From: Chloroflexota bacterium
GTDB lineage: Bacteria > Chloroflexota > Anaerolineae > Anaerolineales > UBA4823
Length of the DNA: 64,000 nucleotides
Assembly: GCA_029265355.1 (NCBI GenBank)
Contig: JAJUJL010000013.1
Coordinates: 1-64,000, forward strand
Direction: 5' to 3'
Shown here piece after piece: positions 41,928 through 57,290 of the stretch (its first letter is position 1; each line of letters starts with the position of its first letter). The notes beneath the pieces are model-generated. The model made no database searches. It was not told the DNA's origin and saw nothing but the letters and a program-made list of their open reading frames with translations. The position numbers and the translations under genes were made by a program.

Positions 41928-44900
41928 TTATCTGCCCACTACCGGCAGGTAAATGGGGCGCGTTCCGAGATAGAGCTGGTAGCCCAGGCTGCTGCCGTAG
42001 GCGCCGGGCACGGGGTGGGTCACTTGCAAAAAGAGGCTGCCAGTGGTGGTTGGCGTCCAGCGCAGCACAGCGGCCTGGCTGAAGCCGGAGGGGTTCACTT
42101 CCGTCAGCAAGGTAGCGCCATCGGCGGCGTACAGACGCAGGCGGGTAGAAGTTGCCCCAGACAATGGATGCGCTGAGACAACCAGGGGTTTACCAGCCTG
42201 CACATCCAGGCGCAACCAATCCTGGTCAACGCCGCTGCTGCCCGAACAGAGAGTGCGAACCTGGGTGGAGGGCATCGGACCGGTTTTTGCCTGGGCGATG
42301 GTATCATCCGCTTCGTAAGCATCCAGCGCATTGCAGGGTGTGGCGGTGATCAGCGTCACAGTTTCGGCGCTGGCTGGATACAGCTCGGCATTACCGCTCA
42401 AGTCTGTAGCGCGCAGGCGAAAAGCATACAGCCCGCCTGGTTGCCCGACAATAAACGCCTGGCGCTGTTCTCCTGGGATGCCGAGGATAGCATCTTGCCA
42501 GGTGCCATTATCAATTTGAACTTGTAGATCGAAGTAGTGCAGGCCTGTCAGGTTGTCCGAGGCGCTCCAGGTGGGGTTTAGGACAGTCGATCCATTGACG
42601 GGGGGCAAGGCCTGGAGCGCTGATACAGGAGGGGTGCGGTCCAGGCTAAGTCGCCAGGCAACTGCTGGAGCGACATTTCCGGCGCGGTCATACGCCAACA
42701 GCGCCAGGGCGAGGCCAGATTGTTCTGGAACAGCGCTCAAATCCAGGCTGGCGCTCCAGCCATCGCTGCCGTCCTGGTCTGAGCCAAAGAGCTTCCAGGT
42801 ACCTGCTAACCAATCGTTGGAGTGCCAATAAAATTCTAAGCGGTCCAGGCCGCTGGCGCTGTCGCTGGCTTGAGCCTGGACCAAGAGAGGCATAGCGGCA
42901 GGAAGCGCAGAACCAGAAGCAAGGTTAAGAAAGTTGACCTGGGGATCATCAGCGTCTCGGTATAAGTTCAATGAATAGGTGTAGGACGCGCCGCCAGCGG
43001 AGGGGTGGTCCCAGGCGCGCAGCTTGAGATAATAATCCCCGCTTTGCGCCAACTGGTGTTGTAGGGCAGAGTCGGTCTGCTCGCCTGTCACCAGATCGTC
43101 GTTCTGGGCGATTGGAGAAGTTCCATCTGCGCCAAGCAAGAATAGATAGGTATCCAGCGGTGAGCCATTGACCTGGGCATGCGCTGCGGCGGCGACCACA
43201 TCGCCAGCCTGACCGGAGAAGCGGAAATAATCCACATCGCCACCTGGGCATATCACGCCTGAGATGGTCTCGCCATAAGCCAGCGCCAGCGCCTGGATTG
43301 GGGTGTTATTGGGTTCGCCCCCGCCTGGGCAGGCGGGCGGCGCACTGGCGCTGATGGAAATATCATCGATAAACCAGCCGGCGTATCCGTTGAGATACGC
43401 ATCCAGCGTCTCGAAGAGGAAGCGGAGGCGGATTGTTTGACCGGCGTAAGCGCTCAGATCGATAGCTGGGCTCTGAAGCCATACGTTGGGCGCGTCGTCG
43501 CTCAATTGTAGCAGGTTGGCATAGGTGCTGTTGTCGGTTGTGATCTGCAGCCAACGCCGGTCCCAGTGAAGGCCAGGGCCTTCTGTCTCGTAGCGATACC
43601 AAAAGCGCAGGTAATAGCCGGTGGAGGAGATTGTGATGAAGGGTGAGGTCAGGTAACCCGTATTTGGCGCGCCGGTGTCGTACCCGACCGCGCTGCCTGT
43701 ATCGTAGCTCCAGGCAACGCTGCCCCCGGTGGTGTGATTTTGCAGGTCGGTGAGGTCCCAGGTGTTGCTGTTGATCCAGGGAATGTCACGCACTTCGAAG
43801 TTTTCACTGTAAGGAGCGCTGACGGTGAGCGGGTTGGGTCCTGGCGGGCCGACGGTGAAGGAGCGCGTCTCGCTCCAGGCACTGACGCCAGCCGAATTGC
43901 GCGCTTGAACCTGCCAGGTATGCACCCCTTGAGGGTAGGCCGCTGGCAGCAAAGAGGTGTCCTTCTGCCAGGGCAGGTCTACACCATCGAGGCGCACACG
44001 AAATTCCGCCCCGCCGCCAGCATCTTGCCAGGTTGGGCTGAGGCTGGGGTAGGCGGTTGAGAAAGAAGCGCCATTAGCAGGCCAAACCAGCCGGGGCACA
44101 GCGGGGGTGGAGATGGGGGCGATTTTTAGCGAGCGGACAACACTTGCCGCGATACGGTTGTCGGCGAGCGAAGGATCCGAAGCAAAGAAAGTCTCGCCCC
44201 GACCGGTGTAGTTATCCTGGCTGAACAGGGTTGCCATCATACCATTCCCCACTTGAATGGAAGCAGCAGAGGAGGCGCCCAGCGAGCTCAGGGTGGTTGG
44301 GCCATACGAGCCGGTGGAGAGGGTGGTGCATGCGCCGGAAAAATCGGCGCCGCTGAAGAGCGCCACCTGGTTTGTACCCACCTGGCAGGCGGGTGGGGCG
44401 GGAGCGCAGGTGTAATTCTTCACCAGGTGAATGAGACCTGGTAAGCCTGGGGCGTAATTTCCAGCGCTATCGCGCAGCTCCAAAGCGATTGCCAGCGGGC
44501 CGTCCGGCAGGCCCGCGGCGCATATATCCCAGGTGTAGCTGAATGTGGGTGTGGTGAATTCCGGGCTGATCGTTTTCCAGGTATTGTTATAGAAGGCTCT
44601 AAAGCGGGCATAGACCGGCAGGGTATCGTCTGCGGACCATCCCTGTAAAAAAATGGTTGACGAGGCAACAGCGCTTTCATTAGCTGGCGAGGTGATGCTG
44701 CCTTGGGGTGGATTGGGATCGGAGGGCGGATAGTTGAGCGAAAGATAGGTGTTGCGTGTAGCTGTGCAGACATCCCCAGGCCAGTCGCAGTACGGCAGGT
44801 CATCTGTGATGCGCGGCCGGCCATCGTTGATATCCACATCTTCGAATTTGATATCAACGGACTGTCCCCAATAAGAGTCTGGATTCAGATGAACGTGAAA

Positions 44901-45755
44901 ATGGACATGATTGCCCGAAGAAATGCCGGTATCATCTGCCATGCCAAGATATTGGCCGCGGGTGACGGGTGTGCCCGGGACGCGCAAGGCTTCTGGGATG
45001 GTATCTTGTGCAAAATGCAGGTAAAGCTGGTAACTGACCGGGCTGGTGGTGTCATCACGCAAGATCAGGTAGTTGCCCGGTGTGCTTGGGTCGCCGTTTT
45101 GCTGCGTCCAGCGCGCCATGTGCACGACGCCAGATTTTGCTGCGTGAACCGGGAACAGGCCGCTCGGATAGGGGCCAGCGAAGTCGAAGGCGTAGTGCGC
45201 CTTACCGGAGGCGTCGTAGGCATCGTGATGGGTGCTCTGGGTCATGTATAGGGTAGTTCCAGCGGCAAAAGGCAAGCGGTAACCCGTGAAGGCAGCTTCT
45301 GGGAGCACAGGCGTTTCGGCGGCAGCGCGCATCAGCCAGTCAGCTTTATCTGTCGGCGACATCAGCTCATCGGGTAAGGAGGCGAGCGCCTCCAGCCACC
45401 CACTATCGCCGGGTAGCAGGACCCGCCAGCGGTTCTCGATGAACTTTACGATGGCTAAACCAGGTTCCAATGGCACCGGTTGGCCTGTTTCTGGATCGAT
45501 GGGCGTCAACTCTACCGAGGCGCTTTTCTGATCATTCGCGATGCGTACGGGATCCAACCGGGTTTCATACATGAGATAAGGCAGCACCATCTCCTGCTGT
45601 GCGCGGATCGCAGATTGAATGGCAGCCCGGATTTGCCCCTCGATGCCAGGCTCAGGCGGCGGCGTCGGCTGCGCAGCCATGCCGGGGGAGAGCGCCAGGC
45701 CAACCATGCCCAACAGGATCAAGCTAGTGATCAATAAAGATATGAATTTCAACAT
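41928..45755 (-). CDS. giant secreted M23-type peptidase-domain protein with beta-gamma-crystallin, MAM-like and PPC domains
   Basis: This 1275-residue exported protein has a signal peptide in residues 1-28. An M23/LytM-like domain at about 160-310 carries the zinc ligands in HYAFDFAGP and NHVHFHVH. Ig-like repeats follow. A beta/gamma-crystallin-like pair lies at about 460-545 (VALFSGADFSGACTTL, ATLFSQDNYTGRGETF). A MAM/immune-inhibitor-A-like sandwich occupies about 640-810 (GWFIDDISIS). Two bacterial pre-peptidase C-terminal (PPC) domains enclose FN3-like domains, and the tail reads IYLPVVGR. It may cut peptidoglycan or be a non-peptidoglycan metalloprotease; Chloroflexota often lack typical murein. 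AAGGA lies before the ATG. Confidence 0.82.
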   Translation of the reverse strand: MLKFISLLITSLILLGMVGLALSPGMAAQPTPPPEPGIEGQIRAAIQSAIRAQQEMVLPYLMYETRLDPVRIANDQKSASVELTPIDPETGQPVPLEPGLAIVKFIENRWRVLLPGDSGWLEALASLPDELMSPTDKADWLMRAAAETPVLPEAAFTGYRLPFAAGTTLYMTQSTHHDAYDASGKAHYAFDFAGPYPSGLFPVHAAKSGVVHMARWTQQNGDPSTPGNYLILRDDTTSPVSYQLYLHFAQDTIPEALRVPGTPVTRGQYLGMADDTGISSGNHVHFHVHLNPDSYWGQSVDIKFEDVDINDGRPRITDDLPYCDWPGDVCTATRNTYLSLNYPPSDPNPPQGSITSPANESAVASSTIFLQGWSADDTLPVYARFRAFYNNTWKTISPEFTTPTFSYTWDICAAGLPDGPLAIALELRDSAGNYAPGLPGLIHLVKNYTCAPAPPACQVGTNQVALFSGADFSGACTTLSTGSYGPTTLSSLGASSAASIQVGNGMMATLFSQDNYTGRGETFFASDPSLADNRIAASVVRSLKIAPISTPAVPRLVWPANGASFSTAYPSLSPTWQDAGGGAEFRVRLDGVDLPWQKDTSLLPAAYPQGVHTWQVQARNSAGVSAWSETRSFTVGPPGPNPLTVSAPYSENFEVRDIPWINSNTWDLTDLQNHTTGGSVAWSYDTGSAVGYDTGAPNTGYLTSPFITISSTGYYLRFWYRYETEGPGLHWDRRWLQITTDNSTYANLLQLSDDAPNVWLQSPAIDLSAYAGQTIRLRFLFETLDAYLNGYAGWFIDDISISASAPPACPGGGEPNNTPIQALALAYGETISGVICPGGDVDYFRFSGQAGDVVAAAAHAQVNGSPLDTYLFLLGADGTSPIAQNDDLVTGEQTDSALQHQLAQSGDYYLKLRAWDHPSAGGASYTYSLNLYRDADDPQVNFLNLASGSALPAAMPLLVQAQASDSASGLDRLEFYWHSNDWLAGTWKLFGSDQDGSDGWSASLDLSAVPEQSGLALALLAYDRAGNVAPAVAWRLSLDRTPPVSALQALPPVNGSTVLNPTWSASDNLTGLHYFDLQVQIDNGTWQDAILGIPGEQRQAFIVGQPGGLYAFRLRATDLSGNAELYPASAETVTLITATPCNALDAYEADDTIAQAKTGPMPSTQVRTLCSGSSGVDQDWLRLDVQAGKPLVVSAHPLSGATSTRLRLYAADGATLLTEVNPSGFSQAAVLRWTPTTTGSLFLQVTHPVPGAYGSSLGYQLYLGTRPIYLPVVGR

Positions 45756-45949: not shown

Positions 45950-46543
45950 ATGAAAAACCCCCCGCGTTTCTTGATGATTTTTTCTGCATTGATGATCATC
46001 GTCGGGTTCACCCTTGGGGTCTACGCCTGGCGAGACTTTCAAAAAGTGGCGATCGTGGTGGAATGGTCGACGGCCTCAGAGCTGAGCACGGTGGGCTTTA
46101 ATATTTACCGCAGCGAAAGCAAGGATGGCCCATATCAGAAAATCAACCAGGAGCTGATCCCTGCTTCCACGGATCCACTTGGCGGGGGGGATTACAGCTA
46201 CCGAGACACCACGGTGACGGCAGGAACGACCTACTTTTACCAGCTCGAAGATGTTGATTCCAGCGGAAGCAACGAAAGATACGGACCAATTCAAGTTGTC
46301 GCTCAGCGCAGCGGTGTGTTGGAGCTGGTTTTGGCAGGTGGGTTAATCCTGGTTTCCACTTTCAGCTTTTACACCAGCCTGCCGCGCAAGCGCAAGGTAG
46401 ATGTGACCGAGTTAATCCCCGCACCGATGATCGCAGACGCTGCGGTTGAGGGAGAGATCGGTGAACCAGGCGAAACGGATAAAGAGCGCAGCGAAGGCGC
46501 TTCTGGCGCGCCGGGGAGCATGGCGAAGCAAGACCTGGGATAA
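45950..46543 (+). CDS. membrane-anchored FN3-like protein (first of two paralogues)
   Basis: This 197-residue protein has an N-terminal membrane helix (about 7-26). An FN3-like beta domain (about 33-125) follows, with VVEWSTASELSTVGFNIYRS and YFYQLEDVDSSGSNERYGP. A second helix (about 128-148), a basic stop and an acidic cytosolic tail end it. The beta domain would lie outside the membrane. The protein at 52582-53499 has the same arrangement and the same motifs, so the two flank the peptide/protease cluster as paralogues. No catalytic motif is seen. Confidence 0.78.
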   Translation: MKNPPRFLMIFSALMIIVGFTLGVYAWRDFQKVAIVVEWSTASELSTVGFNIYRSESKDGPYQKINQELIPASTDPLGGGDYSYRDTTVTAGTTYFYQLEDVDSSGSNERYGPIQVVAQRSGVLELVLAGGLILVSTFSFYTSLPRKRKVDVTELIPAPMIADAAVEGEIGEPGETDKERSEGASGAPGSMAKQDLG

Positions 46544-46574
46544 TTATTTCGCAAATTCCTCCGCTTCCAACGTT

Positions 46575-47387
46575 ATGAACAATCTTTCTCCTGCTGCTGG
46601 AATGGCAATTCAGATTGCGAATCTCAAAGTGCATCTGGATTGTGATAACCAGAGCGTTATGGCATCCCTGGGATGGCGTTACCAGCGGTTCATATCAAGC
46701 AGCCAGGAACCAGCCCTGCTCAACATACAACTGATAGTAGATGATAACAGTGCAAGCTGCGACCTGGCAAGCGCCGTGCTCGAATACAACGCTGGGCTGA
46801 TCAGTATTCGAGGGCAGAGGTGCACAGGCTGGATCGACCTGGAAAATCGGCGCAGCGCGCTGGATTTGCGCAGTAAACATGCAGTGGAAGAGATCGATTA
46901 CTTCTTGCGCATCGTCTTTGCCTGGTTGAGTTTCAGAAAGGGGGGCATATTGTTCCATGCCGCGGGCGTTCGCTGTCATGGGTTGGCCTACGTGTTCTTT
47001 GGCCCCTCCGGCGCGGGAAAAACCACAGCAGCGCGTTTTTCTTCACCCTACGAAGTGCTGAACGATGATTTGCTGTTGCTGGCGCCTGACGGGGATCACT
47101 GGTGGGTTGCCTCTACACCCTTCACGAATCCGACCCAGGTCGCGCCAGCGCCTGGAGGCGCTCCGCTGGCGGGGCTTTACCGACTGGTGAAGGACGAGCG
47201 AGTGTTTCTCGAAGATCTCGGCGCGGCGGAGGCTGTCGCTGAGATATTGGCCTGTGTGCCAATCCTGACAAGCGTGCCGGATTTCGCCGTAGCTCTGCTG
47301 GACCGCTGCCGGAGCCTGGCTGGTGCTGCGCCTGTTTTCCAGTTACATTTCCGGAGGGATCACACTTTTTGGGAGTTGCTGCAGTGA
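46575..47387 (+). CDS. HPr-kinase-like (HprK-related) ATPase
   Basis: This 270-residue protein has a Walker A loop GPSGAGKTT at about residues 143-151. A conserved LLFHAAGV-like strand precedes it (ILFHAAGVRCHG), and NDDLLLL at about 163-169 matches the acidic region of HprK. There is no N-terminal regulatory domain as in true HPr kinase. Such proteins are known in peptide clusters, for example the kinase that phosphorylates the lasso peptide paeninodin. The ATG at 46575 is chosen; an in-frame TTG at 46446 would overlap the previous gene. It lies 141 bases before the 47-residue peptide gene. Confidence 0.8.
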   Translation: MNNLSPAAGMAIQIANLKVHLDCDNQSVMASLGWRYQRFISSSQEPALLNIQLIVDDNSASCDLASAVLEYNAGLISIRGQRCTGWIDLENRRSALDLRSKHAVEEIDYFLRIVFAWLSFRKGGILFHAAGVRCHGLAYVFFGPSGAGKTTAARFSSPYEVLNDDLLLLAPDGDHWWVASTPFTNPTQVAPAPGGAPLAGLYRLVKDERVFLEDLGAAEAVAEILACVPILTSVPDFAVALLDRCRSLAGAAPVFQLHFRRDHTFWELLQ

Positions 47388-47446
47388 CCGGTGGGTGATA
47401 TTACTCGACATTACATAATTATTAAGATTACATGACAAATTGATGC

Positions 47447-47475
47447 TTGCATTACAAACAAAGTTCGGTTAAAAT
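47447..47475 (+). promoter_or_regulatory. promoter of the peptide gene
   Basis: TTGCAT (47447-47452) and TAAAAT (47470-47475) are spaced by 17 bases in strongly AT-rich DNA. The peptide start codon lies 53 bases downstream. The upstream stretch 47411-47460 repeats attacat/ttaca several times, a possible regulator site. Confidence 0.55.
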
Positions 47476-47528
47476 GGGATAAGCGTGGGCCGGAATTATT
47501 CGACGGATGTTTCATTATGGAGGCGACA

Positions 47529-47672
47529 ATGGAAAATGACGAACGGAAACCCTATAGCAAACCTGGAATTATTCAAGAACTCGATTTGGAAACTCGCGCA
47601 GGATCTCCCCTCAGCATTCCGAATCCGTTCGACCTGACCGATCCGGCGGCGCCGGGAACCGACGGCGACTGA
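47529..47672 (+). CDS. 47-residue peptide, candidate RiPP precursor
   Basis: This short gene encodes 47 residues and has an excellent GGAGG ribosome binding site five bases before its ATG. The N-terminal part contains KPYSKPGIIQELDLETRAG, where YxxPxI followed by a Glu/Leu-rich stretch resembles the YxxPxL leader motif that PqqD-like recognition elements bind in lasso-type precursors. After RAGSPL the C-terminal part is Pro-, Asp- and Ala-rich (SIPNPFDLTDPAAPGTDGD) with no cysteine. It has its own promoter and terminator and sits between an HprK-like kinase and a C25 peptidase, four genes from a PqqD protein. The precursor role is inferred; the cleavage site is unknown. Confidence 0.72.
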   Translation: MENDERKPYSKPGIIQELDLETRAGSPLSIPNPFDLTDPAAPGTDGD

Positions 47673-47678
47673 TCGCGT

Positions 47679-47788
47679 CGGCTGAGGCAACTCAAAGCAG
47701 GTCGGCGAGGCCGCACGCAGCCTGAGCTTTGATGGTGGTAGAAGCCATCCCATAGATACTAATCGCGGCACGCTTGGTGGTGAAACAT
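47679..47788 (+). other. structured 3' untranslated region or small RNA downstream of the peptide gene
   Basis: Between the peptide stop and the terminator lie two further stem-loops. The first is tcaaagc/gctttga (47692-47698 with 47726-47732), enclosing AGG/CCT and CGGC/GCCG inner stems. The second is atggt/gccat (47732-47736 with 47744-47748). I do not recognise a riboswitch class. It could stabilise the peptide mRNA, be a small RNA, or control the C25 gene 160 bases downstream. Confidence 0.4.
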
Positions 47789-47790
47789 TT

Positions 47791-47831
47791 GGCGAGCTTC
47801 GTCGTTTTCCGCGAAGCTCGCCTTATTTATA
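47791..47831 (+). terminator. intrinsic terminator after the peptide gene
   Basis: A perfect 11-bp stem (ggcgagcttcg/cgaagctcgcc, arms 47791-47801 and 47812-47822) is followed by TTATTTATAAAT. It makes the peptide transcript monocistronic, or a partial terminator ahead of the protease gene. Confidence 0.85.
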
Positions 47832-47947
47832 AATTAGGTGGTGCGCGCTTCAGCCGGGTTTGATGCTTCCGGCCAAAGGCATCAGTCCATTTTGTTTGAA
47901 CTGGCGAACGTGATCATGTGGTGGATGAAGCGTAATCAGGATGAGCG

Positions 47948-50900
47948 ATGCTGAATAAACTCTTGTCGGTTGTATTGATATTGGGCTTACTGATCATACC
48001 CCATTCCGGCACCCATGCGGTGAGCGAAGAGGCTGGTTTTACGATGCGCGTCCACCAAGGCAATCCAGTCGAAATCGCACTCGATTTTATTGTGCGGAAT
48101 TATGACCTGCAAACGATCTATCTGGATGGCGAGAGCTATACCAGCCTCATGTTCGAGGGTCAAAGCGAGCTGGTGACTGTATCTGGTTATGAAATGCCAG
48201 TGATGACCAAGGTACTGGTTGCGCCTCCATCCGGCGATTTTTCAATCGATTATCAAGCGAATAACACCACACGGATAAAGACCAGACACCCGCTGGCGCC
48301 AGCTTTGCAACCCGTGGAGCTCGATGATGATCTGACTGCGGGGAAAAGCGCGCGCCTCCCCCAAGCATTGGAACAAGTCGATGGCCTTCTGCCGGCTGAG
48401 GCTGTGCAGGTGGAAGAGGCCTGGGTGCGTGAGTACAGGCTGCTTGCCATCAAGGTATTTCCATTACAATACGACGCCTCTCAACATGAGCTCGTTTTTA
48501 GCTCGCACGTGCAGGTCAAAATCGCCTTCGCCAGTAACGTGGCGTCATCTATCGACGCGGCTTTAGAAATATCAGACCCACGCAGCGATCCCTTCCTGGC
48601 AAGTTTGCTACCAGTGGTCGAAAATCCTGAGATGTTGGAGAGCTGGCGAGCCGCGGCAGGCGCCAGCGCTGTTTCAACATCTGCGGTGCAAAGTATCTCG
48701 GCTGCGCCACGCTACCGCATTGCGATTGATCAGGATGGGCTTTACCGCATGACTTACGCTGAGCTCTTAGCTGCGGATGTGCCCGTCGCCAGCATTGACC
48801 CACAGACGTTTCAGCTAGACAGCCAGGGGCGCCAGGTGGCGCTGTATGTCTCGAACAATGACGGCAATCCGGCGGTCTTCTCTCCGGGCGAATACCTGGC
48901 ATTTTATGGGCAAAGATTTCGAGGGGACCGCCTGGCGCAGCAGTTTGCCGCAGAGAATGCACATTTTTATACCTATTGGAAACAACTGAGCGATGGCAGC
49001 CAGGTTCTGTGGAAACCTGAGATGAATGCCGAAATGTTCGAAAAATACACGCGCACGAACGTGTACTGGTTGAGCTACAACCAGGAGAATCCGCTGCGCA
49101 TGCCTGCACTCGACGGCGCGCCGGGAAGCGCGCCGGTTGCGAGCCACTACACGGCAGTGGCGCGCGCCGAGCAGGATCGCTTCTGGCGAACAACGCATTT
49201 CACCTCCGAGGACACATTCTTTTGGGAAGACAGCGGCTTTCCAGCGCGCACCGCTCTGAGTTTTGGCGCGCAGCTCAGCGCAGTGGCCTCCGGAACGTTC
49301 ACCGCTACGCTCAAAGGCGAAGTTGTGGCGATGACCTCGAACCTGTCTGCAGGCCCGGATCACCACACGCAGTTTTTTATCAACGATTCGACCTTCAGCG
49401 GTGCACCCGTGTTGGATAAATTCTGGGAAGGGCGCAGTGCGCTGGCATTCGAAGCGCTTTTCCCACAGAGTAAATTGATAGAAGGCGCCAATCAGCTCAA
49501 TATGAAAATCATCCCCACGGCGGCGGTGCCTAACGAGCGGCTGCTGTTCAACTGGTTCGAGATTCACTATGCCAGGCTCTTCCAGGCGGAAGGGGACGCT
49601 CTGGAGTTCAGCATGAGTCAGGCCGGGCCGTGGAAATTCGAGATCTCCGGATACAGCAGTGGGGACCTTGGGGTGATGGAGATCAGCTCCGTCTACACCC
49701 CCACCTGGATCACCGGCGGCCAATATTCATCTGGCGTGTTGAGTTTCGAGAGCAACCAGCCGGCTGGCGCCAGGTACTATGCCGGGCGCTTCATCGATTT
49801 GAGCGCGGAGCAAATTGTGCTGACGATGCTGCCGGACCTCTCCAGTGCGGCAGATTATGCGATCATCACCCACAAGGATTTCCTGGCAGCCGTGCAGCCG
49901 TTAGCCGATTACCGCGCCAGCAAGGGCCTGGATGTCAAGGTGATTGACCAGCAAGAGCTGTACAACGCCTTCACTTACGGCATCTTTCACCCTCTGGCGG
50001 TGAAAGAGTTTCTGCGCTATGCCTTTGCCAATTGGAGCAAACCTCCGCGATACGTGCTCTTGGTCGGCGATGGGCATTGGAATTTCCACGGTTCGCCGAT
50101 TTACGCCTCGACCTCCAACTACTTCCCACCCAACCTTTCCTGGGTGGATCCCTGGCAGGGCGAGGTGGACAGCGCTAACCTGCTGGCGAATGTGGTTGGC
50201 AGCGATATCTTGCCGGATGTGATGATCGCTCGCCTGCCGGTCAATAACGCCCAAGAAATCGCTGACTACACAAGCAAACTGATCAATTACGAAGCCCAAG
50301 GAGTTCAAACCTGGCAGCGCAACCTGTTGTTCGTGGCTGACAATGTGCCAGATGCAACCGGCGATTTTGTCTACTTTTCGGATGCGATCGCTGCAGATTA
50401 CCAACGCCCTGGCTTTGTGACGTCCAAGATTTATGAGAACGATTATGGTTGTCCGACAGTGAACGGGAATTTATGCCCGGAGGTGAACTATGCGATCACC
50501 TCGACACTCTCCTCTGGCGGGGCGCTGCTGGTTTCCTTTATCGGGCACGCTTCCCTGGATCGTTGGACACATGAGCATATCTTTCTCAATCGCAACCGGA
50601 CCTTCCCGGCAATGACGCTGGCGAGCAGCATATCCACGCTGAACAATGGCGATCGCTTGCCGGTGATTCTTTCCATGACCTGCCTGGATGGCTATTGGAT
50701 CTATCCGGATAATCTCTCTGACCCATCGCGAACGATTGGTCCACAAAGTTCGATCATCGAAGATCTGCAACGGGTGGGAGGAAAAGGCAGCGTGGGCGCC
50801 TTTTCACCCACCGGATTGGGCGTGGCTACCGGTCATGATGCGCTGGAGCGCGGATTTCTTGATGCACTGTTCGTGGCGGGCAACTGGGAACTCGGCGCGG

Positions 50901-51676
50901 CAACCCAATCTGCAAAGATGCGCCTGTACCAGTCCGGCTCGAATTTCGATTTACTGAATACCTTCACGATATTTGGGGATCCTGCCCTGCAAATGCGCAG
51001 CCCACACAATGTAGCGGTGACGCCGAGCAATTCTGAACTGGCCACATTGCCGGGCGGCAGCGTTGTATTTAGCCTGCAAGTCAACAATACCGGATTAGTG
51101 GAAGATACCTTCGATATTGCGCTAGGTCCATCCGCCTGGCAGGTGAGTGCGCCAGCCCAAATAGGACCGCTCTCTCCCGGAGAAAGCACGACCCTCCAGG
51201 TGATGGTCATGATACCTTCTGGGACGCCGATCGGGAGCAGCGACAGCGTGGATGTCGCCTTGATCTCGCAGGGCAACCGGGCGCGACGCAGCAGCTCTAC
51301 CTTGACGACCCGCGCGAACGAATATTTCGCGACCTGGCAACCAGCTTCTGCGAGTAAGCTGGCTGTTTCGGCAAGCCCAGTGATTTATGAATTGACATTA
51401 ACGAATGCTGGATTTGAGGCAGATAGTTATCACCTGACGCTCAGCGGTAACTCCTGGCCGAGTGTCATCGTCACCGGCGCTCTGGTGGAGAATGTTTTTC
51501 CGGGATACAGCCGCACGGTACGGGTGGAGGTCACGGCGCCAGCGGGCAGCGCAAGCCTGCAACAAGACCAGGTGGTGATCACTGCAAACTCGATAAATGA
51601 ACCATCATTTGCCATTGAGGCAACCCTGACTACCGTGGTTGCTTATAAAACCTTTCTGCCGGTAATTGTCAGGTAA
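47948..51676 (+). CDS. C25 (gingipain-like) cysteine peptidase, large secreted form
   Basis: This 1242-residue exported protein has a signal peptide (about 1-25) and a long propeptide-like N-terminal region (to about 600). A C25 catalytic domain follows with the His/Cys dyad H867 in SFIGHASLDRW and C912 in LSMTCLDGYW, preceded by YVLLVGDGHWN. Two Ig-like/BACON-type C-terminal domains (about 1010-1230) and the tail TFLPVIVR complete it. Gingipains are surface or secreted proteases matured by propeptide removal. It lies downstream of the peptide gene and just upstream of the S26 and PqqD genes, so it may process the peptide or surface proteins. That role is inferred. Confidence 0.85.
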   Translation: MLNKLLSVVLILGLLIIPHSGTHAVSEEAGFTMRVHQGNPVEIALDFIVRNYDLQTIYLDGESYTSLMFEGQSELVTVSGYEMPVMTKVLVAPPSGDFSIDYQANNTTRIKTRHPLAPALQPVELDDDLTAGKSARLPQALEQVDGLLPAEAVQVEEAWVREYRLLAIKVFPLQYDASQHELVFSSHVQVKIAFASNVASSIDAALEISDPRSDPFLASLLPVVENPEMLESWRAAAGASAVSTSAVQSISAAPRYRIAIDQDGLYRMTYAELLAADVPVASIDPQTFQLDSQGRQVALYVSNNDGNPAVFSPGEYLAFYGQRFRGDRLAQQFAAENAHFYTYWKQLSDGSQVLWKPEMNAEMFEKYTRTNVYWLSYNQENPLRMPALDGAPGSAPVASHYTAVARAEQDRFWRTTHFTSEDTFFWEDSGFPARTALSFGAQLSAVASGTFTATLKGEVVAMTSNLSAGPDHHTQFFINDSTFSGAPVLDKFWEGRSALAFEALFPQSKLIEGANQLNMKIIPTAAVPNERLLFNWFEIHYARLFQAEGDALEFSMSQAGPWKFEISGYSSGDLGVMEISSVYTPTWITGGQYSSGVLSFESNQPAGARYYAGRFIDLSAEQIVLTMLPDLSSAADYAIITHKDFLAAVQPLADYRASKGLDVKVIDQQELYNAFTYGIFHPLAVKEFLRYAFANWSKPPRYVLLVGDGHWNFHGSPIYASTSNYFPPNLSWVDPWQGEVDSANLLANVVGSDILPDVMIARLPVNNAQEIADYTSKLINYEAQGVQTWQRNLLFVADNVPDATGDFVYFSDAIAADYQRPGFVTSKIYENDYGCPTVNGNLCPEVNYAITSTLSSGGALLVSFIGHASLDRWTHEHIFLNRNRTFPAMTLASSISTLNNGDRLPVILSMTCLDGYWIYPDNLSDPSRTIGPQSSIIEDLQRVGGKGSVGAFSPTGLGVATGHDALERGFLDALFVAGNWELGAATQSAKMRLYQSGSNFDLLNTFTIFGDPALQMRSPHNVAVTPSNSELATLPGGSVVFSLQVNNTGLVEDTFDIALGPSAWQVSAPAQIGPLSPGESTTLQVMVMIPSGTPIGSSDSVDVALISQGNRARRSSSTLTTRANEYFATWQPASASKLAVSASPVIYELTLTNAGFEADSYHLTLSGNSWPSVIVTGALVENVFPGYSRTVRVEVTAPAGSASLQQDQVVITANSINEPSFAIEATLTTVVAYKTFLPVIVR

Positions 51677-51679
51677 AGC

Positions 51680-52228
51680 ATGGAGAGGTACAATCATCTG
51701 GCTCAAGAAATGGGGCAGGTTTACCTGGAAAAGGGAGGCTTGTTGCGCCTGACCGTCAGCGGCAGGAGTATGGCGCCGTTGCTGCTGCCCGGCGATATCT
51801 TGTGGTTCGAGGGGATTTCAACCGCCGATTTGCAGCCGGGCGACCTGGTTTTGGCGCGCCGCGCGGGCGAGATGGTCACACACCGCTTTCTGTACGCAGA
51901 TGGCTCGGGGTGGCATCTCAAAGGGGATGCCTGCAGCTTTCCAGATGCCGCATTCACTGAAGATGCGCTCATCGGACGAGCGGTGATACTGGAGCGCAAT
52001 GGTCGGAAGATCGATTTGAAAATCCCTGAGATGCAGGCCGCTGCAAGAAAAGTCCTGTGGTTTTCGAATTTGGAAGCGAACTTGTTTTCCACGGTCAAAG
52101 ATTTTTTGAGTAAAATATTGCCTTCGCAGCTAATACCCCGGACAAGGTTTTTGCAACGATTGATCGGTTCTCCATTCCGTTGGATAAACTACATGCTCTT
52201 GTCCCGGATTGTCTCTAAGGAGTCTTAA
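51680..52228 (+). CDS. S26-family (signal peptidase-like) serine protease
   Basis: This 182-residue protein has the catalytic Ser30 in VSGRSMAPLLLPGD. It has a His (H68 in VTHRFLY) at the general-base position, as in the ER/archaeal-type Ser-His signal peptidases, rather than the bacterial Lys. A KGDACSFPD segment matches the family KGDxxxxxD box. There is no clear N-terminal membrane anchor; a weakly hydrophobic C-terminal stretch is the only candidate. S26/S24-like proteins of this size are common in RiPP clusters. It starts three bases after the C25 stop and six bases before the PqqD gene. Confidence 0.82.
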   Translation: MERYNHLAQEMGQVYLEKGGLLRLTVSGRSMAPLLLPGDILWFEGISTADLQPGDLVLARRAGEMVTHRFLYADGSGWHLKGDACSFPDAAFTEDALIGRAVILERNGRKIDLKIPEMQAAARKVLWFSNLEANLFSTVKDFLSKILPSQLIPRTRFLQRLIGSPFRWINYMLLSRIVSKES

Positions 52229-52234
52229 GCAAAA

Positions 52235-52528
52235 ATGAAGCCAGGCCTGGATCAATACTATCAACCCTCTCCCGGCACCGTAGGCCAGCTATTGGACAAT
52301 GAGGCTGTCTTGCTAAGACCCGGAGCTGGCAAGGTCAGCGTGCTGAACGATGTTGGGGCTCGCATCTGGCAGTTAGCGGATGGGACGCGCTCGATCCGCG
52401 AGATTGCGATGGCGATCACCCAGGAATTCCGGGTTGATCAACGCCAGGCTCAGGCCGATACCATCGAGTTCATTGAGCTCCTGGTGCAAAAAGGAATCCT
52501 GGTGGCTGTCGATCCCCCCAGGGCGTAA
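52235..52528 (+). CDS. PqqD-like protein (RiPP recognition element)
   Basis: This 97-residue protein of the PqqD fold has the beta-strand LLRPGAGKVSVLNDVGARIWQL. The helical segment IREIAMAITQEFRVD and the C-terminal ELLVQKGILVAV follow. PqqD-like domains bind leader peptides and present them to modifying enzymes. The candidate precursor lies 4.5 kb upstream in the same orientation. No radical SAM, asparagine-synthetase-like or cyclodehydratase partner is near. The overlong spacing between the AAGGAG at 52217 and the ATG suggests modest translation. Confidence 0.87.
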   Translation: MKPGLDQYYQPSPGTVGQLLDNEAVLLRPGAGKVSVLNDVGARIWQLADGTRSIREIAMAITQEFRVDQRQAQADTIEFIELLVQKGILVAVDPPRA

Positions 52529-52581
52529 GCTATCCGCCCGGCATGGGTCACCCATCGTGTCATCAGATGTCGCAATTATTT

Positions 52582-53499
52582 ATGAAGAAGCCGTTCTCCA
52601 TTGCAGTTCTGACCAGTCTTGTCCTCCTGGCAGCAGTGAGCAGCGTATTCATCGTGAAGGCGGCGGTCACATTGACCTATTTTATCGCCCAGGGACAGGC
52701 AGACTCCATCCGCTTGACCTGGGAAACCGCCTCCGAGCTGGATAATTCGGGCTATTATGTCCGCCGTTCGCTCACTGAGACCGGGACGTATAACCGCATC
52801 AGCGCATTTATACCCAGCCTCGGTGACAGCCTGGTTGGCGCAACATATTACTATACAGATACGAATGTGACCATCGGTACCGTTTACTGGTACCAGCTCG
52901 AGTCGGTGGACTTCTCGCAAAATTCGCAGTTCTATGATCCGGTATCGGCTGTGGCAGGATCGGATTTTGCCACTCAAACCGCAATCGCCAGGACACCCAC
53001 TGCCACAGCGTCTACGCCGACTGCGACCGCGACAGTCAATACGGCAACCCCCACCTCCACACGCACCGCGACGCAGATATCTGCAGCGACTGCCACCAGC
53101 GCCTATCCTGGTCCAGCGACCAGCACATTGCCTGTCTTTCAGCCATCGCCGACCGCGGTTAACCCTGGTGCAACCATCCCGGCAACCAGCAGCCTGCCAC
53201 CACCCATTGCTGGAACCAGCACGGCACCACCGGCGCCAGGAGAGGCAAACACTGGCGCAGCAACGCTGATTCCCCTACCCGAGATCACATTGATTTTTGA
53301 GACGCCTGAACCGGTCACTGCCACACCTGCAGCGATTGCCATGAGCTCCGCTGAGCGGGCAAGCCCAGCGCTGGCGGAGTCCGGTTCATCCTCCTCCGGA
53401 TGGTTGACCCCCGGACGCCTGATCTTCTTGGGATTGATCCTGCTGGTGTGGGTGATACTGGGCGTTTGGTTTATTGTCTCGATGAAACGGGTGCAGTAA
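52582..53499 (+). CDS. membrane-anchored FN3-like protein with mucin-like linker (second paralogue)
   Basis: This is a 305-residue protein. An N-terminal membrane helix is followed by an FN3-like beta domain with RLTWETASELDNSGYYVRRS and VYWYQLESVDFSQNSQFYDP, closely matching the protein at 45950. A roughly 130-residue Thr/Pro/Ala-rich linker (TATAS, TPTAT, SLPPP), likely glycosylated or extended, comes next. A C-terminal helix (about 278-298) and short basic end complete it. The start at 52582 gives a regular signal-anchor; MSQLF at 52567 is an alternative. It may tether or display other products of the cluster. Confidence 0.75.
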   Translation: MKKPFSIAVLTSLVLLAAVSSVFIVKAAVTLTYFIAQGQADSIRLTWETASELDNSGYYVRRSLTETGTYNRISAFIPSLGDSLVGATYYYTDTNVTIGTVYWYQLESVDFSQNSQFYDPVSAVAGSDFATQTAIARTPTATASTPTATATVNTATPTSTRTATQISAATATSAYPGPATSTLPVFQPSPTAVNPGATIPATSSLPPPIAGTSTAPPAPGEANTGAATLIPLPEITLIFETPEPVTATPAAIAMSSAERASPALAESGSSSSGWLTPGRLIFLGLILLVWVILGVWFIVSMKRVQ

Positions 53500-53503
53500 T
53501 TTT

Positions 53504-55738
53504 ATGACGCTAACCCAGCCAGGCAACAGGTCTCATCGTCGATGGCACTGGGCGGCGGCGGCGTTTTTGATACTGATCTCTGCATTGCTCGTCCAGCGAG
53601 CGGTAAACAGCGCCCACTTACAAAAGGATGCCGCGGTTGTCCCCTTGATGACTGGACCGCAGGACAGCGGCGTTGCAAAGCTGCGGGTTGAGCGAGAGGG
53701 ACTTTACGAAATTGGCGAGGCGGAATTCCGCCGCCTTGGCATTCTCCTGGAGCAGGTGGAAAGCAGCAACCTGCGCTTAAGCTGGCGAGGGGGCCCTATT
53801 CCCGCCTGGATCGAAGAAGACGCGGCCGGCAAGCGCTTGCGTTTTTTCGCATCCAGACCATCCAGCCTGTATAGCCAGGAAGATTATTACTGGCTCCAAT
53901 GGGGCGCGCAGGCGTCTGAATGGCCGGAGCAAGCGGCCGGCGATATTGAACAAAACGCTCCATTCTCACAGGATTTGAGCACTGTTCCATCGGTCATCTC
54001 GAAAGTGGAGAATACCGTTCTCTCAGAGCTACGGCTTGAGCAGCAAAGCATCTATTCTCCCCAGGTGGAGTCGGGCGACCGGTTCATGTGGAAGATCCTG
54101 GCCGCCCCAGCAACAGAGGATTTTTCACTCGATTTGGCAGACCTTGCAGGGGACAGCTCAGATCTGGCGGAATTGGTCATCGATGTATGGGCCAGCACCG
54201 AAGCGCGGGTTGAACCCGACCACGCCATGGAAGTTTACGTGAATGACGAAAAGATTGCCAGCATTACCTGGGATGGCCGCGGTCGGCAATCTTTTACCGT
54301 GCAGTTTCCAGCAAAATATCTCAAGGCGGAAGAAAATACTATCCGCATTGCGCTGCCCGGAATTCCCGATGTCGCGGCTGACATTGTGCACCTGGATCGG
54401 TTATTGATGTATTACCCGAGCAGGCTTGCTCGTCAACAGGGCCAGGCCATATTTTGGGGCGCGGGAAGCCGGTTAGCGCTGGGAGAATTGGGCGGCGAGG
54501 TGTTGCTGTTGGATATCAGCAACCCGCTGAATCCCACCCTTCATTCCGGGCAAACGAGCGTTGATTCCTATGCTCTGGAGGCTGGTAAACGCTACCTGGC
54601 AGTGTGGGAGGGCGGCGCATACACTCCAGCCGGTATCGAGCAGCCCCAGCTAGCCCCGAATTTGCGCGATCGATCGTTGGCAGCAGAATATGTGGCGATT
54701 GGTCCCGCGGATCTCTTGCCGCCGCTCGAGCCTTTGATGGCGCTGCGCCAGGAGCAGGGGTTGAGCACTGCGATGGTCGATGTCCAGCTCATTTATGATC
54801 AGTTCGGTTTTGGCTACCCTGAGCCACAGGCCATCCAGCATTTTCTGCGGTATGCAAACGAGCAGTGGGCCAAGCCAGAGATTGGCGAACCCCTGCGTTT
54901 TGTGCTGCTGGTTGGTGACAGCACCTATGACCCGCGCGGCTATCTCTCAACCGAGCAGGCCAACCGCATGCCAACGTTCCTGGTGGATACGGTATTTGGG
55001 GGCCAGACGGCGACCGATGTCGATTTTGTGCAGTTCAACGACGACCCATGGCCGGACGCAGCGGTGGGGAGGTTGCCAGCGCAGAGCGCGCTCCAGCTCC
55101 AAAATTATGTGGACAAAGTCTTGCGTTACGAGCGGAATCTGTCACCTTCAAAGGGCCAGCTATCCATTCAAGCGGTAGCTGATGGCCAGGAAGCCAGTTT
55201 CGCGCTGGATGCTGGCGAATTCCTGAAGCTTTTCCCCGAGGAAATCCCCACCGAACTTTTCTCGCCATCCGCTGGCGCCCAGGCGGCGAACCAAGAGGTG
55301 CGAAAGATTTTTACAAGCGGCAGCTCGATCATCGCTTATTTTGGGCACGGCAGCGTCAATATGTGGGGCAAAGATCGCTTGTTTACAGTGGAGGATGTTG
55401 CCGCGCTGGAAACACAGGAGCAGTTCCCTATCGTGCTCAACCTGACGTGTCTGACGGGGTTGTTTACGCACCCTAAAGTGGAATCCCTGGCGGAAGCCCT
55501 CCTGTGGAAAGCAGAGGCAGGCGCGGTGGCTGTGCTGGCGCCCTCCAGCTTGACCTTGCCTTTCGACCAGAACTTTCTGAGCGGGCCGTTGGCGCAAGCG
55601 CTGGCGTCCGAGACGGGAAGCACACTCGGAGAGATCCATCTCTCAGCACGACGTCAAATACCGCCTGAAAACCGAGGTTCGCGCGATGTTATGTTGACTT
55701 TCATGCTGTTTGGCGACCCAGCCCTGCGACTAAAATAG
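53504..55738 (+). CDS. C25 (gingipain-like) cysteine peptidase, membrane-anchored form
   Basis: This 744-residue protein has an N-terminal membrane helix (about 17-37), a beta-rich prodomain and a C25 catalytic domain. Its dyad is H615 in IAYFGHGSVNMW and C649 in LNLTCLTGLF. The 34-residue His-Cys spacing is close to that recalled for gingipain R. LRFVLLVGDSTYDPRG precedes the dyad, as in the first C25 protein. It lacks the C-terminal Ig-like domains and Phi-P tail of the first copy and ends right after the catalytic domain. It starts four bases after the FN3-like gene. Confidence 0.84.
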   Translation: MTLTQPGNRSHRRWHWAAAAFLILISALLVQRAVNSAHLQKDAAVVPLMTGPQDSGVAKLRVEREGLYEIGEAEFRRLGILLEQVESSNLRLSWRGGPIPAWIEEDAAGKRLRFFASRPSSLYSQEDYYWLQWGAQASEWPEQAAGDIEQNAPFSQDLSTVPSVISKVENTVLSELRLEQQSIYSPQVESGDRFMWKILAAPATEDFSLDLADLAGDSSDLAELVIDVWASTEARVEPDHAMEVYVNDEKIASITWDGRGRQSFTVQFPAKYLKAEENTIRIALPGIPDVAADIVHLDRLLMYYPSRLARQQGQAIFWGAGSRLALGELGGEVLLLDISNPLNPTLHSGQTSVDSYALEAGKRYLAVWEGGAYTPAGIEQPQLAPNLRDRSLAAEYVAIGPADLLPPLEPLMALRQEQGLSTAMVDVQLIYDQFGFGYPEPQAIQHFLRYANEQWAKPEIGEPLRFVLLVGDSTYDPRGYLSTEQANRMPTFLVDTVFGGQTATDVDFVQFNDDPWPDAAVGRLPAQSALQLQNYVDKVLRYERNLSPSKGQLSIQAVADGQEASFALDAGEFLKLFPEEIPTELFSPSAGAQAANQEVRKIFTSGSSIIAYFGHGSVNMWGKDRLFTVEDVAALETQEQFPIVLNLTCLTGLFTHPKVESLAEALLWKAEAGAVAVLAPSSLTLPFDQNFLSGPLAQALASETGSTLGEIHLSARRQIPPENRGSRDVMLTFMLFGDPALRLK

Positions 55739-55871
55739 GAGAGAGGCAAAAATTGGAGGGGAAATATCTGGATTCCATTGAAAAACTATGATAGAATATG
55801 ACCGGTTGATATTAAAATAAACTTAATTAGTCCAACTTATCCGAATTGCCACGTAACATGGGAGGCGCGTT

Positions 55872-57236
55872 ATGTCAAAGCAGATGGTCAACCTCGCTAC
55901 TGGACGCAGACAATCTGGCATCCATGCCAGACTGACAATCGGTGTCATCTTACTGCTGTCTCTCATGTTGGCTGGCGCCGCCCTGGCAGCCGCTGTTCAG
56001 GTGGACGATTTCAACGAGGGCAGCCTGGGCAGCATCCGAGCGAGCGCAAGCGATCCTTCGGTGGGGGCGACTGAAAACACAACCAGCAGCGCGCTGGGAG
56101 GCGAACGGGACATTGTTGCCATTCACACGTCTGGCGCTGGCAGTGTGAGCATGGAGGTTAACTTCGAGGGCAGCGCCAGGCTTTCCTTTACAGCCGGCTC
56201 GGGTGTGCGCGGCAGAGGCGTGGTGACTTGGGATGGTGATGATAACGACGCCTTCAACAACGCCCAGGGCTTAGGTGGTGTCGATATCTCGGACAACAAC
56301 AATAATGATGGCTTCCACATCGAGGTGCTCGACAACGATTTCCCGGCGCGGGTGATCATTCGCGTTTACAGCAGCGCTACCGAATGGTCAGAAGGCAGCT
56401 TTATCACCCCGGGTGGTATTGTCTTTCCAGACCACGTGGATTTCTTCATGCCTTTCTCTAATTTTACCCAGGGCACTGGTGCATCGGCAGAAGCAGACTT
56501 TTTCTATGTCACTGCGATCGAGTTCGAGATCGATGGGACGTTGAATTCTTCTACGGATCTGTCATTGGATTTCCTGGATGTCGATAACTTCCGCGATTAT
56601 GGCGATCTTCCGGTTGCCTTTGGCGGTCAAACGGATGCAAGCCATTTTGCCAATGGTTTACGACTGGGTGCGCAGGTCGATATCGAAGCTGCCAAGCCTT
56701 CGACCCCAGGCGCTGGGGCGGATACCGATGACGCCACCGAGGCGGATGACGAAGATGGCGTCAGCCGCACACCGGGAGTGAACTGGACTACCGGGGCGGG
56801 TGGCGGCAGAGTGAACTTCACCGTGAATGGGTGTCAATCCGCTCCGTGTTACTTGAATGGTTGGATGGACTGGGATAAAAACAATTCATTCGATACCGGT
56901 GAGGAGATCTTCACAAATTTCCCGGTGTCAAATGGAAGCTACACGAATGTTCCCATCATGGTGCCCGGAACGGTCAGTTTCAACACCTCCTATTACGCCC
57001 GCTTCCGCATCTGCAACAATATCTTCGATTGTGATGACGCGGCGATTAGCGATGTCACCGGCGGCGAGGTAGAAGATTATTCCTGGTCTTTCGGACCAAC
57101 CTCGGTGAGCCTATCCAGCTTTGGGGCGCGAGTTGCATCCCCAGCTCCTGTCAATCTGCTGGTGTATGGGCTGGTTGGTGTTTTATTGGCTGGCTTGCTG
57201 GTGCTGAGGTATTCCGGTCGCCCTGTGCGGGAATAA
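55872..57236 (+). CDS. secreted GEVED-domain surface protein with C-terminal membrane anchor
   Basis: This 454-residue protein has a signal peptide (about 1-45). A beta-rich domain (about 45-230) with acidic, calcium-site-like stretches such as DGDDNDAFNN follows. A GEVED-type domain has GDLPVAFGG..., WMDWDKNNSFDTGEEIF and the naming motif GGEVEDYSW. A linker, a C-terminal helix (about 430-447, preceded by PAPVNLL) and a basic end (RYSGRPVRE) complete it. This tripartite end resembles sorting-signal anchors but lacks LPxTG. It has its own GGGAGG ribosome binding site after a 133-base AT-rich gap, and a strong terminator follows. Confidence 0.8.
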   Translation: MSKQMVNLATGRRQSGIHARLTIGVILLLSLMLAGAALAAAVQVDDFNEGSLGSIRASASDPSVGATENTTSSALGGERDIVAIHTSGAGSVSMEVNFEGSARLSFTAGSGVRGRGVVTWDGDDNDAFNNAQGLGGVDISDNNNNDGFHIEVLDNDFPARVIIRVYSSATEWSEGSFITPGGIVFPDHVDFFMPFSNFTQGTGASAEADFFYVTAIEFEIDGTLNSSTDLSLDFLDVDNFRDYGDLPVAFGGQTDASHFANGLRLGAQVDIEAAKPSTPGAGADTDDATEADDEDGVSRTPGVNWTTGAGGGRVNFTVNGCQSAPCYLNGWMDWDKNNSFDTGEEIFTNFPVSNGSYTNVPIMVPGTVSFNTSYYARFRICNNIFDCDDAAISDVTGGEVEDYSWSFGPTSVSLSSFGARVASPAPVNLLVYGLVGVLLAGLLVLRYSGRPVRE

Positions 57237-57250
57237 AACCAGTTCATAGA

Positions 57251-57290
57251 ACAGCGCGGGTTCGGTTTCCGAGCCCGCGCTGTTTTTTTT
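57251..57290 (+). terminator. strong intrinsic terminator ending the peptide/protease cluster
   Basis: A 15-bp stem with one G-T pair (57251-57265 with 57269-57283) and a three-base loop is followed by eight T residues. It also separates the convergent Tal-Pgi gene. Confidence 0.92.

Follow-up and report, generated by a model that had tools for sequence, protein, structure and literature searches.

We analyzed a gene cassette in a 64,000-nt stretch of contig JAJUJL010000013.1 of a Chloroflexota bacterium (this whole stretch is hereafter the window), where genes typical of ribosomally synthesized and post-translationally modified peptide (RiPP) pathways are combined with two C25 peptidases and a surface protein (Table 1). 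The original prediction for this DNA had listed a HprK-like kinase, a 47-residue peptide, a C25 peptidase, an S26 peptidase, a PqqD-like protein, an FN3-like anchor, a second C25 peptidase and a GEVED surface protein, and all of these genes were recovered on the plus strand, in the order given. The start that it assigned to the cassette, 45950, is a real gene start, but it belongs to the unlisted FN3A gene, which opens the cassette in other loci too. The two strong boundaries that it described also hold: a divergent M23-type gene forms one of them, and an 18-pair hairpin with a convergent gene behind it forms the other. Beyond the M23 gene, the GT2 gene marks the edge of a block of polysaccharide genes at 32-41 kb, and the cassette adjoins the edge of this block. 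The precursor peptide gene has a GGAGG a few bases 5' of its ATG. The hairpin that follows it is a possible attenuator, which would favor expression of the peptide over that of the enzymes.

Table 1. Features of the cassette and of its upstream neighborhood in the window (TM, transmembrane)
Feature	Position	Strand	Description
FN3A	45950..46543	+	TM helix, FN3-like domain ('WSTASEL..GFNIYRS'), second TM helix, basic tail
HprK-like kinase	46575..47387 (open frame from 46446)	+	P-loop GPSGAGKTT; predicted peptide Ser kinase
Precursor peptide	47529..47672	+	47 aa, MENDERKPYSKPGIIQELDLETRAGSPLSIPNPFDLTDPAAPGTDGD; leader through ETR, predicted core from AGSP
Perfect hairpin	47791..47822	+	terminator/attenuator-like, between peptide and C25a
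C25a	47948..51676	+	secreted C25 peptidase with Propeptide_C25, PorU-like
S26	51680..52228	+	S26/archaeal-type signal-peptidase-like, without TM-like window; predicted leader peptidase
PqqD	52235..52528	+	discrete RiPP recognition element (RRE); Pfam PqqD E 3e-18; best PDB match TbiB1 (5v1u)
FN3B	52543..53499	+	FN3-like domain, Thr/Pro-rich spacer, C-terminal TM; kept in other cassettes
C25b	53504..55738	+	membrane-anchored C25 peptidase, PorU-like
GEVED surface protein	55872..57236	+	predicted substrate; Pfam GEVED E 1e-9
GEVED C-terminal sorting signal	57087..57233	+	FGPTSVSLSSFGAR - TM - RYSGRPVRE
Terminator-like hairpin	57248..57286	+	18 pairs; closes cassette
M23-type metallopeptidase	41928..45755	-	divergent; Big/PPC domains; 6 of 33 further loci searched have a homologue
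GT2 glycosyltransferase	40203..41201	-	homologues in 4 of the 6 loci with an M23 homologue

The predicted kinase scores below every NCBIfam cut-off, including that of ScmC/HprK_rel, and its AlphaFold2 model (pLDDT 89.6) matches the fold of the PEPCK/HPr-kinase superfamily. The S26 protein matches Pfam Peptidase_S24 (E 1e-7) and, below cut-off, NCBIfam TIGR02228 (E 1.5e-8). It possesses the Ser (GRSM), His (THR) and Asp (KGD) residues, which are retained in 16, 16 and 17, respectively, of a set of 17 S26 proteins. The FN3A model (AlphaFold2, mean pLDDT 68) shows a beta-sandwich flanked by helices 6-30 and 123-142, with disorder beyond about residue 146, and its Foldseek matches are FNIII domains. 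The two C25 proteins match the Pfam C25 family with E 2e-70 and 1e-69 and have conserved His and Cys regions; C25a contains the His of IGHAS and the Cys of MTCLDG, which we take to be the catalytic residues. The GEVED protein has no NCBIfam match. By hydropathy analysis, an N-terminal membrane or signal segment is present in C25a, C25b, FN3A, FN3B and the GEVED protein, the last three of which carry an additional segment towards the C terminus. No signal or TM segment was seen in the peptide, S26 or PqqD, and a single window in the kinase was taken for a buried helix. From this pattern we infer that the gene products are divided into a cytosolic and a surface half.

The peptide belongs to a conserved family. 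Four cassette peptides align across the leader, and their profile matches 31 of 400 genomes of the order (E<=0.01). In a sample of 400 genomes of the phylum it matches three (that of the window, G479 and G597; genomes are designated by G and loci by L numbers), and the family is therefore narrow in this sample. The fetched regions contain 50 peptides at E<0.01, with a fixed spacing from Tyr to Ala-Gly-Ser. The common leader pattern is Y-xx-P-x-I..L-E-T-R/K, followed by A-G-S. Counting from the core Ala as zero, the leader has Tyr at -15 (50 of 50), Pro at -12 (49), Glu at -7 (47), Leu at -4 (46), Glu at -3 (47), Thr at -2 (39) and Arg or Lys at -1 (34), and the core starts with Ala (49), Gly (50) and Ser (41). 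These letters are partly imposed, because 41 of the 50 peptides were first picked by a pattern demanding Tyr/Phe, Pro, Ile/Val, Leu-Glu/Gln and Ala-Gly at free spacing; the remaining nine came by profile. Across ten homologous pairs, pooled pS is 0.59 and pooled pN is 0.17; thus, the peptide is a real, constrained protein under purifying selection. A chance small open reading frame (ORF) was rejected on the basis of the family matches, the constant leader spacing and this selection. Several genomes have multiple matches (seven in G029, five each in G032 and G034, four in G024 and three in G007), mostly on different contigs and in some cases about 2-6 kb apart. From this set we dropped the matches to profile A1 in G068 and G302, which gave no family ORF in the fetched regions, and L176, a copy of L093; one further match (G029:C7:41427) was left out of the fetched regions. 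For each genome, the number of candidates scored was at most 16 for the peptide profile, two for C25b and 116-117 for the signal profiles A3 and A7 described below, and therefore absences from these searches are not firm.

The regions read contain the cassette order FN3A-HprK-[peptide]-C25a-S26-PqqD-FN3B-C25b again in many genera, spread over several families. With content and order conserved beyond the genus and family of the window, the grouping of these genes is far from chance. The original prediction had named what would speak against it, namely a peptide that is not conserved or genes that are scattered independently; it is not refuted, because the peptide is conserved and tied to the kinase, PqqD, S26 and C25 genes. 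Among the 400 genomes of the order, the peptide was found in 15 of 18 genomes with a C25b orthologue (E<=1e-90) versus 16 of the 382 others (Fisher test, P = 3e-16, a value that overstates independence because the genomes share ancestry). Orthologs of HprK were identified in 16 of 20 genomes searched (E<=1e-6), including positions far from the peptide in G479 and G597, and PqqD matches were found in 28 of 61 relatives, some of them outside this cassette type. The nearest PqqD match with a name is on a Caldilineaceae contig, in line with an origin in Chloroflexota. Five loci (L046, L048, L049, L050 and L052, by eye) have no peptide between HprK and C25a, and their peptides lie elsewhere in the genome, so we rejected the notion that the peptide is always beside its machine. 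The same position is without a peptide in L004, whose genome was outside the peptide search.

Related cassettes extend this gene set. A radical SAM/SPASM-type enzyme accompanies HprK, S26 and PqqD in the sister cassettes L041, L044, L007 and L054 (by Pfam) and L047 (by eye), all of which contain C25 except L054. Their peptides bear Cys residues, and by eye the spacing between leader Tyr and Ala is unchanged. Of these loci, L007 lies on an Acidobacteria contig. The enzyme is absent from the window cassette by Pfam and NCBIfam, and an ordinary radical SAM RiPP was rejected as its description. In L199 (8415-12058), two same-strand ABC exporters directly precede the genes peptide-C25a-PqqD-FN3B-C25b, and they are a possible export route for the peptide. 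Thus, the absence of a radical SAM maturase and an ABC transporter reported in the original prediction holds for the window cassette, but not for its relatives. A genome outside the class of the window encodes a peptide with a long Pro/Gly-rich tail (L200:7626-7988); the genes behind it are those of C25a, an FN3 protein and C25b, and HprK is encoded on a different contig. In genus g19, giant alpha-2-macroglobulin-type proteins with Big_5 domains are encoded after C25b (L049:15042-19501 and L052:13152-18875); a protease inhibitor beside the proteases is possible.

Many peptide genes are located outside the cassettes, next to genes for surface proteins. Upstream of 27 of the 50 peptides, at a distance of up to 50 nt, lies the end of a same-strand ORF with a minimum length of 140 aa. 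The C terminus of each of the 27 encoded proteins has a hydrophobic stretch and a basic tail (K/R at two or more of the final 12 positions), compared with 57 of the 314 remaining ORFs of these regions (Fisher test, P = 1e-18; the background ORFs had a minimum of 200 aa and may include unreal ones). Judged by eye, 25 of these proteins are secreted and carry a shared C-terminal signal, in some cases in relaxed form; L174 is the weakest case. The other two (L107 and L163) are small membrane proteins. The shared ending consists of [G]PTA(V/I)xLxxhxA, a TM helix and a basic tail (RRR). The secreted partners represent several families, among them GEVED proteins and a choice-of-anchor K protein, and the GEVED protein of the window carries the signal as well. 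None of the NCBIfam sorting-signal models reached its cut-off on five partner proteins. The original prediction had overlooked both the dispersal of peptides in other genomes and their frequent pairing with surface proteins sharing this signal; its link between the peptide and surface proteases and proteins is strongly supported.

Two profiles of the signal were used to compare its distribution. Profile A3, built from peptide partners, gave 19 matches (E<1e-14) across 61 genomes, of which 13 are its own rows; each of the other six (three in G034 and one each in G036, G032 and G018) lies directly before an independently found peptide. Profile A7, which adds rows found without a peptide, matches 17 of the 61 genomes at E<=1e-4, and 16 of these belong to the 18 genomes with a peptide or a C25b orthologue; G013, with its Cys-type peptide, was left out of this set, and its inclusion would give 16 of 19. 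Since 10 of the 16 positive genomes had supplied rows of the profile, a control was made without them, in which the signal was found in 6 of 8 versus 1 of 43 genomes (Fisher test, P = 1e-5). Over the 27 pairs, similarity between peptides is correlated with similarity between signals (Mantel r 0.68 for the core and 0.77 for the leader; 0 of 5000 permutations), a correlation that duplication of the pair or its shared descent as a unit would also explain. Short C-terminal motifs of another type (YLPVVGR, FLPVIVR, YLPLLGK) end several secreted proteins, including those encoded at 41928-45755 and 47948-51676 of the window and others in L181, L194 and L199, and are perhaps a second C-terminal signal. 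In L039 (2818-4153), the peptide is preceded by genes for an ECF (extracytoplasmic function) sigma factor and for a protein that by eye looks like an anti-sigma factor and has an FN3-like domain; proteins resembling the latter occur in L107, L108 and L110 (by eye).

The closest described system is that of the linear polyphosphorylated peptides (LPPs; genes lppA-K-B-S-D-N), reported in Bacillota in May 2026 (PMC13381572). There, the HprK-like LppK places phosphates on core Ser3, LppB is an RRE presenting the YxxP leader, and LppS is a type I signal peptidase (SpI) that cleaves after Thr to leave A-Q-S; an MsbA-like pump and a nucleoside triphosphate (NTP) transferase round off the set. LPPs are stated to be restricted to Bacillota, with product and role unknown, and their loci in Bacilli often lie within polysaccharide loci. 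A text search of the main paper gave no word beginning with Chloroflex and no mention of sortase, surface protein or C25. The window shares with LPPs the HprK-like kinase, the discrete RRE and the archaeal-type SpI/S26 peptidase with Ser/His/Asp, as well as a YxxP leader ending in or near E-T, a variable C terminus, a core of the form A-x-S (Ser being third if the cut is before Ala) and nearby polysaccharide genes. Therefore, the claim of the original prediction that the cluster is unlike described classes does not stand for the cytosolic half, in which LPPs use the same set. The LPP motif YxxPxVLxHQxIxFETxxS is not matched in full: YxxPx(I/V), ET and Ser are kept, whereas H-Q is absent. The Ala of the window family is one residue nearer to Tyr than in LPPs, and if cleavage took place directly after Thr, Ser would be the fourth residue. 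Unlike LPP loci, the window cassette has neither an MsbA-like exporter nor an NTP transferase among its genes; C25 and FN3 genes are added, and precursors are dispersed beside surface proteins. By analogy, it is quite likely that the cytosolic half works as in LPPs, and we describe the system as LPP-like in the cytosol without classing it as an LPP.

The surface half has its nearest relatives elsewhere. The PDB sequence closest to C25b is PorU (6za2, E 1e-11), and both C25 proteins match the NCBIfam model of the Type IX secretion system (T9SS) sortase below cut-off (200 versus 420 bits). They resemble PorU and the gingipains of Bacteroidota in having a C25 domain with His and Cys and, by NCBIfam alignment, a PorU-like N-terminal region. 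PorU cuts off a C-terminal domain (CTD), and the cargo is tethered via a linking sugar, as reported in PMC4804311 and PMC7468200. In contrast to T9SS cargo, the predicted substrates here have no folded CTD at their end but a short motif followed by TM helix and basic tail. Such a tripartite C-terminal signal, together with one central enzyme set and dispersed substrates, is also characteristic of the PEP-CTERM/exosortase and LPXTG/sortase systems, which differ in enzyme class and motif and have no companion peptide. A HprK-like kinase with a PqqD-like protein is likewise found in the SynChlorMet cassette (NCBIfam ScmC and ScmD), which includes radical SAM enzymes; in the window, the ScmC and ScmD matches are below cut-off and the cassette has no radical SAM gene. 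Our literature search, in whose scope most subscription papers and preprints did not fall, gave no paper under the name SynChlorMet and, among the matches listed, none on this gene combination.

Taken together, these observations suggest that surface proteins may be finished or anchored in a new way. The peptide is very probably functionally tied to the signal-bearing surface proteins, and the small machine encoded in the cassette probably phosphorylates and trims short peptides. We consider the chances even that this is the central locus of a two-compartment system in which an LPP-like phosphopeptide pathway and the PorU-like C25 enzymes serve surface proteins with C-terminal anchors. The enzymatic steps, peptide export and peptide-protein join that we infer would proceed as follows. 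In the cytosol, PqqD, as the RRE, would bind the YxxP leader, the HprK-like kinase would phosphorylate the core Ser (A1-G2-S3), and the leader would be removed just before A-G-S by the S26 peptidase, as in LPPs. Surface proteins with the [G]PTA(V/I)xLxxhxA motif, TM helix and basic tail would be exported by Sec and held in the membrane. Outside, together with FN3A and FN3B, the PorU-like C25 enzymes would be responsible for cleaving the signal and for processing or anchoring the protein. The action of C25 on the signal is somewhat likely, and it is doubtful that C25 joins protein and peptide. The mature (phospho)peptide would most likely serve as an anchoring partner, e.g. as an acceptor linking the protein to wall or polysaccharide. 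In the most specific version, which is speculative, the system would be sortase-like: a C25 transpeptidase would cut each protein with a PTAV-type signal and join it to the Ala-Gly-pSer N terminus of a mature LPP-like peptide, often the protein's own, encoded by the next gene, and this peptide would link it to wall or polysaccharide.

Several observations weigh against this pathway. No gene of the described kind ends within 50 nt upstream of 23 of the 50 peptides, that of the window included; several of these 23 sit in a cassette or at a contig end. The genome of the window has one peptide match versus at least three signal proteins, as two or more signal-bearing secreted proteins besides GEVED (L142:2471-3388 and L143:887-1789) have no peptide match beside them, and its cassette has no exporter for the peptide. 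Among the 31 peptide genomes, four (G024, G067, G068 and G302) are without C25 at E<=1e-20; G067 nevertheless has a C25a match, and the peptide matches of G068 and G302 are doubtful. In G024 (87% complete), four peptides and eight signal matches were found, and none to HprK, PqqD, C25a or C25b. G058 has the peptide and the cassette with no HprK match, and G005, the lone outsider among the A7-positive genomes, has signal proteins with no peptide match. The core Ser is missing in 9 of the 50 peptides, four of which have Thr, and among the 17 S26 proteins the Ser is replaced by Cys in one case and the His by Arg in one.

These observations leave room for other explanations. An LPP-like pathway might instead produce a free secreted RiPP, such as a signal, antimicrobial or biofilm peptide, with C25 and the surface proteins aiding merely in its release or display. 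The LPP gene set, the resemblance of the sister cassettes with radical SAM/SPASM enzymes and Cys-bearing cores to ordinary RiPP loci, and the ABC exporters directly before the peptide in L199 are in line with such a product. We regard it as unlikely, as it leaves unexplained why 27 of 50 copies lie within 50 nt behind C-terminally anchored proteins, mostly with one signal, and why peptide and signal similarity go together, although shared descent could account for the latter. Less likely still is a dedicated regulator, in which the (phospho)peptide would inhibit or activate C25 or report surface status to an ECF sigma/anti-sigma pair. The gene arrangement of L039 and the lookalike proteins of three other loci speak for it, but neither next to the window peptide nor in the dispersed pairs inspected was a sigma gene noticed (by eye, with no dedicated search), the peptide has no signal or TM segment, and one-to-one pairing with substrates would be unusual for a regulator.

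It is improbable that C25/FN3 surface processing and the phosphopeptide system are mere neighbors with no common pathway. G005 and G023 do have C25 and FN3 with no peptide or PqqD in the stretch read, and the peptide profile matches nothing in 50 of the 77 genomes that have C25 (E<=1e-20); against this stand the conservation of gene order over several families, the presence of the peptide in most genomes with a C25b orthologue, and the signal profile, which tracks the peptide genomes. A lasso peptide pathway, with its cyclase encoded elsewhere in the genome, is very improbable and was rejected. Lasso peptides have an acidic ring residue at a constant position 7-9, but the alignments show by eye no acidic residue at a constant distance from the core start, and neither asparagine synthase nor transglutaminase-like or ABC families are among the Pfam matches of the cassette, which has no cyclase. 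Asparagine-synthase homologues do occur on other contigs, the leader has YxxP, and PqqD is closest to lasso RREs. A cut before Ala would also make Thr the penultimate leader residue, as in the lasso rule given in PMC10368454. Overall, the RiPP interpretation of the original prediction is partly supported, by the RiPP-type YxxP leader, by conservation and by association with the kinase, PqqD, S26 and C25 genes.

LPP-type machinery, here in an apparent member of Chloroflexota, is thus tied to surface proteins with a shared C-terminal signal and to PorU-like enzymes by gene order, co-occurrence and frequent one-to-one pairing, and the data point to a sorting signal that stays below the cut-offs of all NCBIfam sorting models for the proteins tested. 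If the sortase-like version is true, the peptide would be a RiPP devoted to protein sorting, and LPP-type peptides would gain a function. The purpose of phosphopeptide RiPPs thereby becomes directly testable on a peptide and its neighbor.

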